DNA of 64,000 nt from Gemmatimonadaceae bacterium (GCA_035533755.1 DATLTC010000026.1:62001-126000), one strand, 5' to 3'; positions 13,418 through 46,477 are shown, counted from the first letter of the stretch. Program-made: numbers and translations. The notes: a model not told the origin generated them from the sequence alone.

Positions 13418-13503
13418 TTAAGACAAGGGAACGGACTGTGGCGCAGGGCCTGGCGCGCCCATCCGACTCCGCCGTCCGACTCGCATCCCACCCTGTGAGG
13501 CGA

Positions 13504-15963
13504 ATGCCCAAGGTCTCTCGGCAGGAAGACCTCTTCGACGCGCTGTTACCGCGCACGCTGCCGCTCATGGCGTTGCGGTCCACGATCGTCTTCCCCCACG
13601 GCACCATCGCCGTGCAGATGGGCGCCCCCGAGAACCTCTCGCTGTTGAACGAGAACCCCGAGCCCGGGGTGGTGGTGGCGCTGGTGGTGGCGACGGGAGA
13701 GGCCGAGGATCCGCTGGACACCGAGACGCTGGTGAACCGGATCGGGGTGGCGGCGCGGGTGCACGAGCGGATCAACCTGCCCGGGAACACGGTGCAGATA
13801 ACGCTCCAGGGGATGCAGCGCATTCTGATCGAGGGCATCCAGCAGACCGAGCCGTATCCGGTGGCGATCGTCCGCGACGCCGCCGAGACGCCGGTGGACG
13901 CGGGCGATGGGCGCGAGCTGATCACGCGCGTGATCGCCTCGGCGGAGACGCTGGCCGACCTGGTGGAGAAGATCTCGGCGGACGTGCCGTCGATCCTGCG
14001 GATGAACGTGGCGGACCCGGGGCGATTTGCCGATCTGGCGGCCACGAACCTGAGCTTCCGCATCGCCGACCGCGACGAGGTATTGCAGCGGTTGGACGTG
14101 GGGCAGCGGCTGCGGTTTGTGCTCACGCGGCTGGAGCGCGAGGTGGCGCGGGCGCGCGTGATGGAGGACGTGAAGAAGCAGACCGAGGTGAAGATCGAGG
14201 AGCACCAGCGCGAGTTCTACCTGCGCCAGCAGCTGCGGGCGATCCAGAGCGAGTTGGGCGAAGCCGATCCGAACGAGAAGGACGTGCTGGATCTGCTCAA
14301 GCGCATCGAGGACGCGGGGCTGCCGGAGAAGGCGCTGGTGGAGGCGAAGCGCGAGGCGGAGCGGCTGCGGATGCTGGCGCCGGCATCGAGCGAGTATCAG
14401 GTAGTGCGCACCTACCTCGATTGGCTGCTGGCGCTGCCGTGGAGCACAAATTCGGGCCGTCACGAGATCGAGTTGGCCAAGGTGCAGGAGGCGCTGGACG
14501 CGCGGCATTACGGGCTGGACGAGGCCAAGGAGCGGATTCTCGAATTCCTGGCCGTGCGCAAGCTGCGCGGCGGGGCCTCGCAGGGACCGATCCTCTGTTT
14601 CGTGGGGCCCCCGGGCACGGGCAAGACGTCGCTGGGCGAGGCGATCGGGGCGGCGATCGGGCGGGCGTGCTACCGGATCTCGGTGGGCGGCGTGCGCGAC
14701 GAGGCGGAGATCCGCGGGCACCGGCGCACATACGTGGGGGCGATGCCGGGGCTGATCCTGCAGGCGCTGCGCCGCGTGCAGGTGAACGACCCGATCCTGA
14801 TGATCGACGAGATCGACAAGATGTCGGGGGGCGGGCCGTCGGGCGATCCGGCGGCGGCGATGCTCGAGGTGCTGGATCCGATGCAGAACAGGACGTTCAC
14901 GGATCACTACCTCAATCTGGCGTTCGACCTGTCGTCGGCGCTGTTCATCTGCACGGCGAACAACCTGTTCGACATCCCGGGCCCGTTGCGCGACCGCATG
15001 GAGGTCATCAAGATCGCGGGCTACACCGTGGAGGAGAAAGTCGAGATCGCGTGGCGCTACCTGGTGCCCAAGCTGCTGGGCGAGCACGGGCTGGGCGAGG
15101 TGGACATCCAGTTCACGGACGAATCGCTGAGCTTCATCTCCAACCGCTACTCGCGCGAGGCGGGGCTGCGCAATTTCGAGCGCAATCTGGCGGCGATCCT
15201 GCGCAAGCGGGCGCGGCGCAAGGCGGAGGGTGAAGAGGGCGCGTGGGTGATCGACGAGGGGCGGGTGGAGGCGCTGCTGGGGGTGCCGCACTACGTGACC
15301 GAACCCGCCGAGCAGGAGCCGGAGGTGGGGGTGGTGACGGGGCTGGCGTGGACGGCGAGCGGGGGCGACCTGATCGTGATCGAGGCGCTGCGCATGCCGG
15401 GCTCGGGGCGGCTGACGGTGACCGGGCAGTTGGGCGACGTGATGCGTGAATCCGTGGACGCGGCGCACTCGTACGTTCGATCGCGGGCCAGCCAGCTCGC
15501 GATCGCCGATTCCACGTTCAAGGAGCACGACCTGCACATCCATCTGCCGGCGGGGGCGATCCCCAAGGACGGCCCGAGCGCGGGGATCACGATCACGCTG
15601 GCGATCGCGAGCGTGCTGAGCCAGCGGCCGGTGCGGCGCGACCTGGCGATGACGGGCGAGGTGACGCTGCGCGGCAAGGTGCTGGAGATCGGCGGCGTGA
15701 AGGAGAAGGTGCTGGCGGCGTACCGGTCGGGGCTGCGCGAGGTGATCCTGCCCAAGGCCAACGAGAAGGATCTGCGCGACGTGCCGCCGGAGGTGCGCCA
15801 GCACATGGCGTTCACCTTCGTGGATCGCATGGACCAGGTGCTGCAGCTCGCGCTGCTCGACCCGGAAGGCCGGCGGGCGCGTCCCCCGCGGCGGCGGTCC
15901 GGCGACGGGACGTCGCGCGAGACGCCCTCGTCGGGAGAGTCGCTCGCCGCCGACGCGCCGTAA
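13504..15963 (+). CDS. lon: ATP-dependent protease Lon (copy 1)
   Basis: An 819-residue cytoplasmic Lon protease (841 if started from the in-frame GTG at 13438). An N-terminal substrate domain (TLPLMALRSTIVFPHG...) is followed by a coiled region and an AAA+ module with Walker A GPPGTGKTSLGE and Walker B ILMIDEIDK. The protease domain carries the Ser of KDGPSAG and the Lys of GGVKEK, so the catalytic dyad is intact. The last 30 residues are a charged, disordered tail. I prefer ATG 13504, which has GAGG upstream; the GTG has AAGGGA 7 bp upstream and cannot be excluded. A second Lon lies at 46641-49046. Confidence 0.96.
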   Translation: MPKVSRQEDLFDALLPRTLPLMALRSTIVFPHGTIAVQMGAPENLSLLNENPEPGVVVALVVATGEAEDPLDTETLVNRIGVAARVHERINLPGNTVQITLQGMQRILIEGIQQTEPYPVAIVRDAAETPVDAGDGRELITRVIASAETLADLVEKISADVPSILRMNVADPGRFADLAATNLSFRIADRDEVLQRLDVGQRLRFVLTRLEREVARARVMEDVKKQTEVKIEEHQREFYLRQQLRAIQSELGEADPNEKDVLDLLKRIEDAGLPEKALVEAKREAERLRMLAPASSEYQVVRTYLDWLLALPWSTNSGRHEIELAKVQEALDARHYGLDEAKERILEFLAVRKLRGGASQGPILCFVGPPGTGKTSLGEAIGAAIGRACYRISVGGVRDEAEIRGHRRTYVGAMPGLILQALRRVQVNDPILMIDEIDKMSGGGPSGDPAAAMLEVLDPMQNRTFTDHYLNLAFDLSSALFICTANNLFDIPGPLRDRMEVIKIAGYTVEEKVEIAWRYLVPKLLGEHGLGEVDIQFTDESLSFISNRYSREAGLRNFERNLAAILRKRARRKAEGEEGAWVIDEGRVEALLGVPHYVTEPAEQEPEVGVVTGLAWTASGGDLIVIEALRMPGSGRLTVTGQLGDVMRESVDAAHSYVRSRASQLAIADSTFKEHDLHIHLPAGAIPKDGPSAGITITLAIASVLSQRPVRRDLAMTGEVTLRGKVLEIGGVKEKVLAAYRSGLREVILPKANEKDLRDVPPEVRQHMAFTFVDRMDQVLQLALLDPEGRRARPPRRRSGDGTSRETPSSGESLAADAP

Positions 15964-17541: not shown

Positions 17542-17561
17542 CGCCGCGGGCGCGGCGCTAC
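17538..17561. terminator. Bidirectional hairpin carrying both convergent stop codons
   Basis: A perfect 10-bp inverted repeat GTAGCGCCGC / GCGGCGCTAC with loop GGGC. The TAG of the DUF445 gene (17539-17541) lies in one arm and the TAG of the opposing lipoprotein gene (17558-17560) in the other. There is no long T-run on either side, so termination strength is uncertain, but the symmetry fits a two-way terminator. Confidence 0.6.
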
Positions 17562-18820
17562 TTGAGGCGGACGGCCGAGAGGTTGATGAGCGCCGTGGAG
17601 CTGCCGGCGGGAACGTCCACGTACAGGACCACGCTGCGTCCGTCGATCAGGGTGGGCGTGATCTCCGCGGTGCGCTTGCTTCCCCGGTAGGTGCGGCGCC
17701 CGCTGGCGGCGAGCGTGGGGTTGGGGGTGCGGTAGCGCTTCTCGGTGGCCTGGCCGAGGGCGTCCACGAACCTGGCGGCCTCGACCGGCGTATGCCACAC
17801 GGTGACCCAGACCACGGCGGTGCCGGAGGGCTCGGCGAGGATGCGGAAGCGTTCGCCGTCCCATCCCTCGGCGGCGCTGACGGCCAGGGTCTGGTCGTGC
17901 GTGTGGCGATAGAGGAACAGGCGGGTGTCGAACTCGCCGAGATCATTCTCGTAGATGGTCCGGCCCACCGTAGCGGGGAGCGTGACCTGGGCCGGCACGT
18001 CGCGCGGCGTGCCGAAGAACGCCGGCTCGTGCAGGATCTGGGTGGTGGACACGGGAAGATCGGTGAGCGGGAGCTTGCCGGGTTCGTGGGCCTTGAAGCG
18101 CCGCATGAATTCGGCGCCGCTCAGGTACGGGAAGAGGAGTTCTTCCTGGATGACCTCCGGCGCCGAGGCGAACACGGGCTGCGAGCTCTGGCTCTCGCGG
18201 ATCATCTCGCGGACGCGGTCCCAGCCGCCGGGCATGAGGGTGGCGATGTTCTGGCCGCCGGTCATGATCGACATCTGCTCGTACGTGGCCTCGCCCTCGA
18301 TCACGGCCTGGATGGCCATCTCGCGGTCGTTGTCGCCGGTGAGGTGCTGGAGCGAATCGAGGTTCACGTATTGATCCTGCAGGGCGTGCACGAGTTCGTG
18401 CGTCACGGTGACGCTCACGAGGTCGTCGGGCGCGCCCTTGACCACGTACAGCACCTTGGCGCTGGGATCGTAGTAGCCGATGATCTGCTCGGTGAGCAGA
18501 TCGACGAGGAACTTGCGGAGGTTGAGGGTATCGGGAATGAGCCCGAACGCCTTGTAGGCCGCCTCCTGCCCGGCGACCTCGGCGGCCGGCGTTCCCTCGT
18601 CGAACTTCTTGATCAGGAAATCGCGCACCTGTTCGCGGGTGCGCACCTCGAGCTTGGGCGGCGTCTTGAAGGGCACGCCCACGGCCTTCTCGATCTTGGG
18701 CACGGCGGCGGCGACCATGTCGGCGTAGGGCCCCTGCCCCGTCTTGCCGTTGCGGCGGCCGCAGCCGGCCAGCGTGACGGCGGCCGCGAGCAGCGCGCCG
18801 GCGATCCAACGATTGTTCAC
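17558..18820 (-). CDS. Putative zinc-metalloprotease lipoprotein (HExxH)
   Basis: A 420-residue lipoprotein. The GTG start at 18820 overlaps the preceding stop as GTGA and gives a signal peptide ending in a lipobox VTLAGC. Near residue 140 is THELVHALQDQ, a zincin-type HExxH motif preceded by IGYYDPSAKVLYVV. This arrangement is known from poorly characterised bacterial zincins. A Glu-rich segment VIEGEATYEQM about 30 residues later could give the third zinc ligand. The C-terminal third looks like a separate beta-rich domain. It is probably periplasmic and membrane-tethered. The substrate is unknown. It closes an operon behind a Clp-like ATPase and a prepilin peptidase. Confidence 0.75.
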   Translation of the reverse strand: MNNRWIAGALLAAAVTLAGCGRRNGKTGQGPYADMVAAAVPKIEKAVGVPFKTPPKLEVRTREQVRDFLIKKFDEGTPAAEVAGQEAAYKAFGLIPDTLNLRKFLVDLLTEQIIGYYDPSAKVLYVVKGAPDDLVSVTVTHELVHALQDQYVNLDSLQHLTGDNDREMAIQAVIEGEATYEQMSIMTGGQNIATLMPGGWDRVREMIRESQSSQPVFASAPEVIQEELLFPYLSGAEFMRRFKAHEPGKLPLTDLPVSTTQILHEPAFFGTPRDVPAQVTLPATVGRTIYENDLGEFDTRLFLYRHTHDQTLAVSAAEGWDGERFRILAEPSGTAVVWVTVWHTPVEAARFVDALGQATEKRYRTPNPTLAASGRRTYRGSKRTAEITPTLIDGRSVVLYVDVPAGSSTALINLSAVRLK

Positions 18821-19968
18821 TCCCACGTGACAGGACCTCCCGACATGAGTGCGACCACGCGTGCCACGTCGTGGCCGCGAACGACAACGCCTTCGTCCAT
18901 CAAGCGCCGGGCCAGCTCGGCATCGAGCGCGGGGCCGGCGGCCGGCGACGCGTCGGCGGACGGCGGCGCGGGCCTGGGCGGCGGCGCGGCGGGTCTCGCC
19001 TCGACGCTCGGCGCTCCGGCGGCGAAGGCCGCCTCGAGCCCGGCCCCGAACCGCTCCAGGACATCGAACGACGTCTTGGCGATCGATTCGATGGGATCTT
19101 CGCTTTCCAGCGGCTCCGCGGCCGCGGCGCGCGGACGCGGCGGATCGCGCCTGACGCGCCGCGCCTGGAGCAGCGCCTCGGTCCGCGGGGTGTACACCGC
19201 CAGCGCCTGCAGGTGCGCGCACGCTTCGTCGAGCGCATCGATGGCCTTGTCGGGCCGGCGGCGGTCGGCAACGTGCCGATCGGTGAGCCGCACCGCCGCC
19301 TCGAGGGCGTCGTCGCCGATGAGCACGCCGTGGTGGCGCTCGAGGCGCTCCTTGCGGGCGCGCAGCACGTCGAGGGTGTGTTCCACGCTCAGCTCGCGCA
19401 CGGCCACTTTCTGGAAGCGCCGTTCGAGCGCGGCGTCACCCAGCACCCAGTGGCCGTACTCCTCGTCGGTGGTGGCGCCGATGACGCGGAAGTCGCCGCG
19501 CGCCAGCGCCGGCTTGAGCATGTTGGCGGCGTCCATGGCCGTGCCCATGGCGGTGCCCTGCCCGATGAGGTTGTGCAACTCATCGATGAACAGGATCACG
19601 TCGGGGGCGGCCTGTGTCTCGTTGACGAGGACGCGGATGCGCTCCTCATACTGGCCGCGGTAGGTGGAGCCGGCGAGGAGCGCCACGTGGTCGAGCGACA
19701 GCACGCGCACGTTGCGGAGGGCGAGCGGGACGGTGCCCGCCGCGATGTGCTGGGCGAGTCCTTCGACGATGGCCGTCTTGCCCACGCCGGCGGCGCCGAC
19801 GAGCGCGGGATTGTTCTTGCCGTGTCGCAGGAGGATGTCGATGACGCGGGCGATCTCGTCCTGGCGGCCGCGCACCGGCTCGAGGCGCCCGGCGCGGGCG
19901 TCCGCCGTGAGGTCGCGCGTGAAGCGTCCCAGCGCGCCGCTCGAGGCGCGCGGCGGTTCGTCGATCAT
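18817..19968 (-). CDS. Single-domain Clp-type AAA+ ATPase (ClpB/ClpC D1 only)
   Basis: A 383-residue protein that matches only the first nucleotide-binding domain of Hsp100/Clp ATPases. Visible are Walker A GAAGVGKT (Lys64), the pore-loop motif STYRGQYEER (Tyr103), Walker B VILFIDE (124-130), sensor-1 GATT and the arginine-finger block ALERRFQKV. The small subdomain begins RRRPDKAIDALDEA. There a ClpB would carry its coiled middle domain, but this protein has about 90 residues of Pro/Ala-rich linker. It ends with GHDVARVVALMSGGPV, equivalent to the D1-D2 junction of ClpB. The N-domain and D2 are absent. It is coupled to the metalloprotease lipoprotein gene by a GTGA overlap. Its role is unknown. 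Confidence 0.88.
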   Translation of the reverse strand: MIDEPPRASSGALGRFTRDLTADARAGRLEPVRGRQDEIARVIDILLRHGKNNPALVGAAGVGKTAIVEGLAQHIAAGTVPLALRNVRVLSLDHVALLAGSTYRGQYEERIRVLVNETQAAPDVILFIDELHNLIGQGTAMGTAMDAANMLKPALARGDFRVIGATTDEEYGHWVLGDAALERRFQKVAVRELSVEHTLDVLRARKERLERHHGVLIGDDALEAAVRLTDRHVADRRRPDKAIDALDEACAHLQALAVYTPRTEALLQARRVRRDPPRPRAAAAEPLESEDPIESIAKTSFDVLERFGAGLEAAFAAGAPSVEARPAAPPPRPAPPSADASPAAGPALDAELARRLMDEGVVVRGHDVARVVALMSGGPVTWE

Positions 19969-19992
19969 CCGTTGGAGCGAAGCGGTGGGCGG

Positions 19993-20838
19993 TCAGCCGC
20001 CCGTGATCCACGCGAACAGCGCATTACCCCAAAGCAATGTCACGACGGCCGCAGGCGCAAGGAACACGCCGAATGGGACGAGCGGCGGTTCGAACCCGGG
20101 CTCACCCAGGGACAACTCGGCCTGGGCGGACCGGCGGCCGCGGCGCATCCACGCCACGGGATAGACGACGCCCAGGAATACGGCGGCGCCGATCGCCGCG
20201 CCCACGAACACGGTGAAGATGGCGCGCGTGGGCCCCACCGCCGCGCCGACGAACGCCATCAGGGTCATGTCGCCGAGGCCCATCGCTTCTTTCTTGAGCG
20301 CCACCTCACCCAGCCAGCCGACGATGGCGATCAGGCCGGCGCCCGCGCAGGCGCCGATCACCGCGTCGCCGAGCCCGGCGAACGGTCCGTTGTCGCCGCC
20401 GAACCACGCGTACGTGGCCAGCGCGAGGGTGAACCCCAGCCCGAACAGCGTGAACCCGTCGGGGATCAGATAGTGCTTGCCGTCGGTGATCGCGACGCCG
20501 AGGAGCACGGTGACGGTGGTGGCCACGCGAAACGCCGTGAGCGAGGGACCGAAGTTGACCACGGTGAGCGTCCAGATCACGGCCACGGCGAGCTCGACCA
20601 GCGGGTACTGGGCGGAGATCGGCTCGTCGCAGCAGCGGCAGCGCGCGCGGAGCACCAGCCAGCTGAGCAGGGGAATGTTCTCGAACCAGGCCAACTGGTG
20701 TCCGCAGTTGGGGCACCGCGAGCGGGGACGCACCACCGACAGCTCGGCGGGCCAGCGTCCGATGCAGACGTTCAGGAACGATCCGATGACGGCGCCGAAC
20801 ACGAACGCGACGATCTCGAAGTACAGGTCGGGGCTCAC
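19993..20838 (-). CDS. pilD: Prepilin peptidase (type IV leader peptidase, A24 family)
   Basis: A 281-residue polytopic inner-membrane aspartic protease that cuts, and usually N-methylates, type IV prepilins and type II pseudopilins. The N-terminal GAVIGSFLNVCIGRWP and the zinc-binding loop with CPNC and CRCC are clear. The catalytic regions are DGKHYLIPD and GLGDM. The GTG start overlaps the upstream stop (GTGA). The only other pilus/secretion gene in the window is the GspE-like ATPase at 51292-53418. The symbol is used in the generic sense. Confidence 0.93.
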   Translation of the reverse strand: MSPDLYFEIVAFVFGAVIGSFLNVCIGRWPAELSVVRPRSRCPNCGHQLAWFENIPLLSWLVLRARCRCCDEPISAQYPLVELAVAVIWTLTVVNFGPSLTAFRVATTVTVLLGVAITDGKHYLIPDGFTLFGLGFTLALATYAWFGGDNGPFAGLGDAVIGACAGAGLIAIVGWLGEVALKKEAMGLGDMTLMAFVGAAVGPTRAIFTVFVGAAIGAAVFLGVVYPVAWMRRGRRSAQAELSLGEPGFEPPLVPFGVFLAPAAVVTLLWGNALFAWITGG

Positions 20839-21647
20839 GGGCGAAGCTCGTACAGGAGGATGCCGGTGGCCACGGCGACGTTGAGCGATTCCACGGCCGA
20901 CGCGATGGGGAGGGCCACGATGTGATCGGCGCGCTCGCGGGCCTGCGCCGACACCCCCGCGCCTTCGTTGCCGACCACGAGGCCGAGGCGCGCCGGCGGC
21001 GGCGTCCGGCCGAGGGGCGTGCCGCCGGCGTCGGCCACCCACCACGACAGCCCCACGCGGCGGTGGAACGCGTCGAGCTCGTCCCACGTGGCGTTCAGAC
21101 AGCGGTGGTGGAAGAGCGCGCCCATCGCGCCGCGCACGACCTTGGCATTCCACAGATCCACCGTGCCCGGGAGGGCGACGGTGGCGTGGGCGCCCAGCGC
21201 GGCGGCCGTGCGGAGGATGGTGCCCACGTTCCCGGGGTCCTGCACGGCGTCGAGCACGACGACGCGAAGGCCGTCGGCGGCGGCGATGTGGTCGAGCGAG
21301 TGGGCCGGCACGGGCGCGATGGCGAGCACGCCCTGCGGCGAATCGGTTTCGGCGGCGGTGTGAAAGTCGCGCGCGGCCACCTCCTCCACCGGCACGCCGG
21401 CCTGGAGAATGGCGTCGCGCAGGGCGGCGCCGCGCGGGGCCTCGAGCAGCTGCGGGGCGACGATCACGCCGCTGGGCGTGATGGGCGACCGGAGCAACTC
21501 CTCCACGGCGCGCACGCCTTCGCACACGAACAGTTGCTGCCGTTCGCGGGCTTTTCGACGACGGAGATCACGCGCTAACGTCAGGAGTCGCAAGGCGGTT
21601 GCGGAGAGAGGGTCCGGCGGCCGCCGCTCACCAACCGGCGCCGCCAT
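20835..21647 (-). CDS. SpoU/TrmH-family RNA 2'-O-methyltransferase
   Basis: A 270-residue SPOUT methyltransferase of the TrmH/RlmB type. An N-terminal substrate-binding domain (LFVCEGVRAVEELLRS) precedes the knotted domain with LDAVQDPGNVGTILRTAAALG, LVVGNEGAG and the closing VALPIASAVESLNVAVATGILLYE. It methylates a ribose in rRNA or tRNA; the target cannot be read from sequence. The start at 21647 is the first ATG giving a family-length protein. It lacks a clear ribosome site and a start a few codons away is possible. Confidence 0.9.
   Translation of the reverse strand: MAAPVGERRPPDPLSATALRLLTLARDLRRRKARERQQLFVCEGVRAVEELLRSPITPSGVIVAPQLLEAPRGAALRDAILQAGVPVEEVAARDFHTAAETDSPQGVLAIAPVPAHSLDHIAAADGLRVVVLDAVQDPGNVGTILRTAAALGAHATVALPGTVDLWNAKVVRGAMGALFHHRCLNATWDELDAFHRRVGLSWWVADAGGTPLGRTPPPARLGLVVGNEGAGVSAQARERADHIVALPIASAVESLNVAVATGILLYELRP

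Positions 21648-45223: not shown

Positions 45224-46477
<1,254 letters not shown>

Follow-up and report, generated by a model that had tools for sequence, protein, structure and literature searches.

A naturally stand-alone Hsp100 D1-type AAA+ ATPase gene in Gemmatimonadales

The roles of the two rings of Hsp100 proteins have usually been dissected by means of mutants and shortened constructs. ClpP docks on loops of the second AAA+ domain (D2), which in ClpB also houses the main threading motor; DnaK is recruited by the middle domain (M-domain). In a published study of ClpB, D2 was described as the main motor and the first AAA+ domain (D1) as a weaker, regulatory ring (PMC6593972). A laboratory construct of Thermus ClpB, NBD1-M (residues 141-534; nucleotide-binding domain 1 plus M-domain), lacks the N-domain and D2; it binds and hydrolyses ATP, its activity depends on the arginine pair of D1, and it oligomerises into ATP-dependent trimers, which are the smallest active unit, without forming stable hexamers (PMC4239642). 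A natural single-AAA+ Hsp100 relative is Skd3 (human CLPB), in which an NBD2-homologous AAA+ domain is combined with ankyrin repeats (PMC7343390). Here we describe the opposite half occurring alone. A stretch of 64,000 nucleotides from a Gemmatimonadaceae bacterium (GCA_035533755.1, DATLTC010000026.1:62001-126000; hereafter the window) contains a gene for a complete Hsp100/Clp D1-type AAA+ module without N-domain, M-domain or D2. In contrast to NBD1-M it is a natural protein and lacks the M-domain.

The coordinates and strand of the gene, and its GTGA coupling to the next one, had been given in an earlier note on this DNA and were confirmed from the sequence. The gene and its parts are:

18817..19968, minus strand: D1-only Hsp100 AAA+ ATPase gene, 383 residues, ATG start (NCBIfam, Pfam, AlphaFold2, Foldseek)
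19774..19797, minus strand: Walker A, GAAGVGKT, residues 58-65; G58 and A60-T65 invariant in 19 orthologues
19654..19671, minus strand: pore loop 1, GSTYRG, residues 100-105; Tyr/Phe kept, the preceding Lys replaced by T, M, S, V, I or A in the family
19579..19599, minus strand: Walker B, VILFIDE, residues 124-130; L126, F127, D129 and E130 invariant
19468..19479, minus strand: sensor 1, GATT, residues 164-167; invariant
19417..19422, minus strand: arginine-finger pair R183/R184 in ALERRFQ; invariant
18940..19182, minus strand: Pro/Ala-rich linker where the M-domain would be, residues 263-343; low model confidence at 279-295 and 317-341
19024..19068, minus strand: conserved amphipathic linker helix, residues 301-315 (helix 292-315 in the model; motif and hydrophobic moments)
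18820..18939, minus strand: C-terminal D1-lid piece up to the D1-D2 junction, residues 344-383 (high model confidence; tail profile alignment)

The NCBIfam ClpB model (TIGR03346) matched residues 7-256 of the protein at model positions 150-399 of 853 with 325 bits, far below the full-length cut-off of 1232 bits, thus only D1 is covered and, as the earlier note held, N-domain and D2 are missing. The ClpV, ClpA, ClpG and ClpK models matched the same D1 part. Pfam gave AAA and AAA_lid_9; no ClpB_D2-small match was obtained on the protein, and the locus was not among the D2-small matches. There is no space for an N-domain, since the upstream prepilin peptidase gene (pilD) ends 24 bases before the ATG. 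In an AlphaFold2 model built on 19 family members (mean predicted local distance difference test score, pLDDT, 80.9) D1 is intact, C-terminal lid piece included: D1 and lid are mostly above 90, block averages over residues 351-380 are 95-98, and values below 50 occur only at the very start of the protein, in pore loop 2 (138-146) and in the linker segments 279-295 and 317-341. The best Foldseek matches of the model were a ClpC chain (9a66_A, the top match) and ClpB NBD1 (4hse).

Two observations support an end of the protein at the D1-D2 junction: the tail is confidently modelled, and its profile aligned repeatedly with that junction in ClpB/ClpC at the same profile positions, although each alignment was weak (E 0.0018 upward). 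How far the final Trp is conserved in its own right is partly obscured by the overlap of its codon with candidate start codons of the downstream peptidase gene.

All the motifs claimed in the earlier note (Walker A and B, sensor 1, the pore-loop Tyr and the arginine-finger block) were located in the protein; Walker A, Walker B, sensor 1, R183/R184 and the pair P239/D240 are invariant in orthologues down to 54% identity. With Walker A, Walker B, sensor 1, the arginine pair and a Clp-type lid, the protein belongs to the Hsp100/Clp D1 type. It shares the fold, these motifs and the aromatic pore loop with D1 of ClpB/Hsp104, to which (TIGR03346 positions 150-399) it is up to about 58% identical; unlike the ClpB disaggregases, it has a single AAA+ ring and no coiled-coil M-domain in the D1 lid. 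ClpC/ClpA have the same D1, but D2, and hence the ClpP-docking loop, is absent from the window protein and from every orthologue found, as is the N-domain used by adaptors from the window protein. The AAA_lid_9 lid separates it from the D2-like single-domain Hsp100s ClpX, HslU and Skd3. ClpV/TssH works in type VI secretion as a full-length protein with two rings, whereas here D1 stands alone with pilD and the peptidase gene as syntenic neighbours. The only match in a defence library was a weak one to TRIP13, within the AAA core.

The family differs from ClpB and ClpC at several D1 positions (E. coli ClpB numbering). In all members Arg replaces Ile at 181, within the VIGR motif that precedes the nucleotide site, and pore loop 2 carries one inserted residue (Ala). 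Cys replaces Gly at 182 in 17 of 20 members, the window protein retaining Gly; further substitutions are P341L, Ala for Gly at 352, and L353R. Lys250, directly before the pore Tyr, is lost, while the aromatic residue itself (Tyr103 in the window protein; Tyr/Phe) and the following RG are kept in all members. In E. coli ClpB both K250 and Y251 are substrate contacts (PMC6593972). These family-specific changes point to a specialised rather than a relaxed function.

Replacement of the M-domain by a Pro/Ala linker, another claim of the earlier note, holds for the linker (71-131 residues across the family) but is an incomplete description, as the conserved amphipathic helix also lies there; G308 of the helix is nearly invariant among the 19 orthologues. 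An example of the helix is ALERFGAELEALF. Helix and pore loops bear on the possibility that the protein is an ATP-dependent switch or scaffold, which would bind nucleotide, and a partner through the linker helix, and move no polypeptide through its pore. Conservation of the helix, together with the lost Lys and altered pore loop 2 in all members, would suit such a role; retention of the aromatic residue and of RG throughout the family argues against it, and we regard it as quite unlikely.

The distribution of the gene was studied in a core sample of 41 genomes from the same genus, family and order as the window genome. An orthologue was present in 22 of them, with no internal stop in any copy. 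Complete copies (about 370-440 residues) align end to end with the same termini throughout; every one found is D1-only and lies between pilD and the peptidase gene wherever the contigs permit checking. The window protein shares the marks of this family: a single D1, the helix-bearing linker, the junction tail and the slot between pilD and the peptidase gene. Thus the D1-only length and the neighbours recur, as the earlier note had proposed to check, and neither of the two outcomes it named as speaking against its view, full two-domain homologues in close relatives or a linkage unique to this genome, was seen.

A family profile run on 49 genomes of the phylum gave bimodal scores: no member of the D1-only family fell below 568 bits, and no full-length Clp protein or other match exceeded 355 bits. 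At E <= 1e-85 the gene was found in 48 of 298 genomes of the phylum, all of one order, given as Gemmatimonadales from the titles of the matching records; Gemmatimonadales are soil bacteria. Outside the phylum, the distribution is that seen among the best 80 loci of one named-genome scan. The first 26 (L098-L123) are from Gemmatimonadota, one of them titled merely 'bacterium', and measure 313-429 codons from the D1 start, two being cut by a contig end. The remaining 54 are from other taxa and nearly all lie in frames of full-length ClpB/ClpC size, a few being cut by contig ends or unusually short. The scan patterns derived from the D1-only family and may have passed over a D1-only Hsp100 in another lineage. 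Phages and plasmids gave partial matches below 60% identity, all spanning less than 80% of the query, and the annotated ones among those listed were ClpB or Clp protease subunits.

In a D1 tree (FastTree, 94 sequences) all family members group in one long-stemmed clade (support 1.0) that lies apart from the ClpB and ClpC proteins of this phylum and of the same genomes. The nearest group is ClpV, a weak sister (0.79) on long branches, for which long-branch attraction is possible. The inner split of the clade matches the families of the order, as vertical descent would give. Mapped on a tree built from four genes of the neighbourhood, the pattern of presence and absence requires 9 changes (mean of shuffles 13.9; 6 of 1000 shuffles as low), and ancestral presence in the order would need about 11 losses. 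The gene looks ancestral in the order and mainly vertically inherited; it is old, conserved and frequently lost. Some relatives carry, in addition, separate ClpV-like third Hsp100 genes (L187, L190, L197), and one relative (L184) has a further Hsp100 that sits on its own long branch.

These data also bear on the idea that the gene is a damaged remnant of ClpB/ClpC in decay. It does lack one half of the normal protein and is missing from many relatives, but the frames are open, the catalytic residues invariant and the ends of complete copies the same, and all copies fall in one clade that divides by families. Decay was rejected on these grounds and has next to no probability left; the earlier note's view of an evolved architecture is supported by the recurrent D1-only length, the invariant residues, the separate clade and the recurring neighbours.

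We consider that the protein has about an even chance of being a natural stand-alone Hsp100 D1 that works as a self-associating ATPase for limited protein remodelling, a reading which draws on the sequence, the model and analogous proteins. From the conserved residues it is predicted to bind ATP and probably to hydrolyse it. It would self-associate into a ring or partial ring by its own D1 interfaces and arginine fingers, and its aromatic pore loop would grip polypeptide. Its task would be to remodel or take apart a limited number of clients, not to disaggregate or degrade protein in bulk, with the clients perhaps selected by the linker helix or by some adaptor. Self-association and limited remodelling are suggested by the NBD1-M and D2-motor papers together with the conserved residues. 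As D2 and the M-domain are absent, ClpP feeding and DnaK cooperation by the known routes would not be expected.

Several points weigh against this reading. D1 is the weaker and regulatory ring of ClpB (PMC6593972), loss of the pore-loop Lys may weaken the grip on substrate, and about 11 losses within the order mark the gene as dispensable. The earlier note had stated that Hsp100 D1 domains drive hexamer assembly; this needs the caveat that NBD1-M, the nearest analogue, was described as reaching trimers and not hexamers (PMC4239642).

The main competing explanation is a trans-acting subunit, in which the lone D1 would enter the D1 ring of the host ClpB or ClpC and act as a brake or adaptor; it could tune the ring in this way because a D1-only subunit supplies no D2. 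The D1 interface motifs are kept, arginine fingers included, the same genomes encode ClpB- and ClpC-type proteins, and ClpB can reportedly be reconstituted in trans from an NTD-NBD1-MD piece (N-terminal domain, NBD1 and M-domain) and an NBD2 piece (PMC7343390). However, the lone D1 is just 52-53% (approximately) identical to D1 of the host ClpB/ClpC and forms a separate long-stem clade, and ClpB and ClpC are present with or without it, therefore their co-occurrence carries no signal. We judge such a subunit unlikely. Taken jointly, an Hsp100 reduced to its D1 half and serving either as a single-ring remodeller or as a trans regulator in ClpB/ClpC hexamers is about as likely as not.

A split Hsp100, with D2 encoded elsewhere, was also considered. 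No clear lone-D2 gene was seen among the ClpB_D2-small matches in the 41 genomes, a few short frames not having been individually checked; almost all matches lie in frames sized like ClpB, ClpC, ClpV, ClpX or HslU. This counts in favour of the stand-alone reading. The window itself has a ClpB_D2-small match at 46159-46398 (plus strand) in a 418-residue frame, probably ClpX. A whole-genome search found no ClpS adaptor in any of the 41 genomes; as these relatives have ClpC-type proteins, ClpC there probably uses other adaptors.

If either the stand-alone or the trans-acting reading is true, this naturally D1-only Hsp100 would be for D1 what Skd3 is for D2. A D1-only lineage maintained under purifying selection is a natural experiment on the abilities of D1 by itself, namely assembly, ATP hydrolysis and gripping of protein, in a protein free of the main motor, the DnaK-binding domain and ClpP docking. 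No description of a D1-only Hsp100 was found in the open-licence literature, most subscription papers lying outside that search.

The genes around the ATPase gene and the coupling between them are as follows:

19993..20838, minus strand: prepilin peptidase (A24), upstream gene (Pfam A24_N_bact and Peptidase_A24)
20835..21557, minus strand: SpoU/TrmH-type RNA methyltransferase, next in the conserved block (family match; synteny)
17558..18820, minus strand: secreted HExxH metallopeptidase gene, 420 residues, lipobox-like Cys20 (family matches; AlphaFold2 pLDDT 90.4)
18386..18400, minus strand: HELVH zinc motif, peptidase residues 141-145; H141, E142 and H145 invariant in 31 sequences
18817..18820, minus strand: GTGA overlap of the ATPase TGA with the peptidase GTG (read from the sequence; stop and start overlap in 16 of 18 orthologous, ATPase-bearing loci)

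Start codons were chosen by rule, so single overlap and distance values are approximate. In the window a second in-frame GTG 6 bases upstream (18820-18826, minus strand) may be the true peptidase start, which makes the exact overlap uncertain. The conserved overlap makes an operon likely, and the ATPase is probably co-translated with the secreted peptidase; we take the pair as a likely conserved operon, which does not in itself prove that the two act together.

The earlier note had read the neighbours as a sign of envelope or pilin biogenesis. In such a role the ATPase would be a cytosolic helper, with the precursor of the peptidase, prepilins or the regulators of these as its targets. Its constant place between pilD and the peptidase gene and the conserved overlap speak for this. 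On the other side, the peptidase gene and a single A24_N-type prepilin peptidase match per genome occur in 41 of 41 genomes, with or without the ATPase gene, and the order pnp-spoU-pilD-(AAA)-peptidase is maintained in both cases, mostly with pilD and the peptidase gene adjacent where the ATPase gene is absent. ATPases of the type II secretion/type IV pilus type (PF00437) are likewise present in 41 of 41 genomes, so that their co-occurrence and that of the prepilin peptidase with the ATPase are uninformative. Outside the order, relatives of the peptidase lack this neighbourhood (no pilD, spoU or AAA gene within the stretches fetched), and the peptidase has an export signal, the ATPase none. 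The neighbours therefore do not carry the earlier note's suggestion, and we hold an envelope role to be very unlikely.

In genomes lacking the ATPase gene the peptidase gene is retained, and the distance from pilD to it ranges from a 4-base overlap to 164 bases, with three exceptions. A replacement gene was rejected, as the slot is mostly just closed. The exceptions are three genomes of one family with about 3 kb of other genes in the slot (L072 7503-10437, L073 3189-6444, L074 2991-5844); judged by sequence alone, these genes look like an extracytoplasmic function (ECF) sigma factor with a zinc-finger anti-sigma factor, plus two secreted proteins rich in repeats.

The neighbour carries a HELVH motif and a lipobox-like Cys20, in keeping with the HExxH lipoprotein metalloprotease that the earlier note proposed; E175 is likewise invariant across the 31 relatives. 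It resembles the Hvo_1808 family surface protein and the DUF6782 putative metallopeptidases, but scores below both curated cut-offs (Hvo_1808, NF038145, 98 bits against 200; DUF6782, 22.9 against 27). Its model gave no fold match in the PDB at E <= 0.001; its C-terminal half gave weak, non-significant matches to the mycobacterial envelope proteins LpqN, TiME and PknH (extracellular domain), and to DcrB. Elsewhere in the window, Lon is encoded at 13438-15963.

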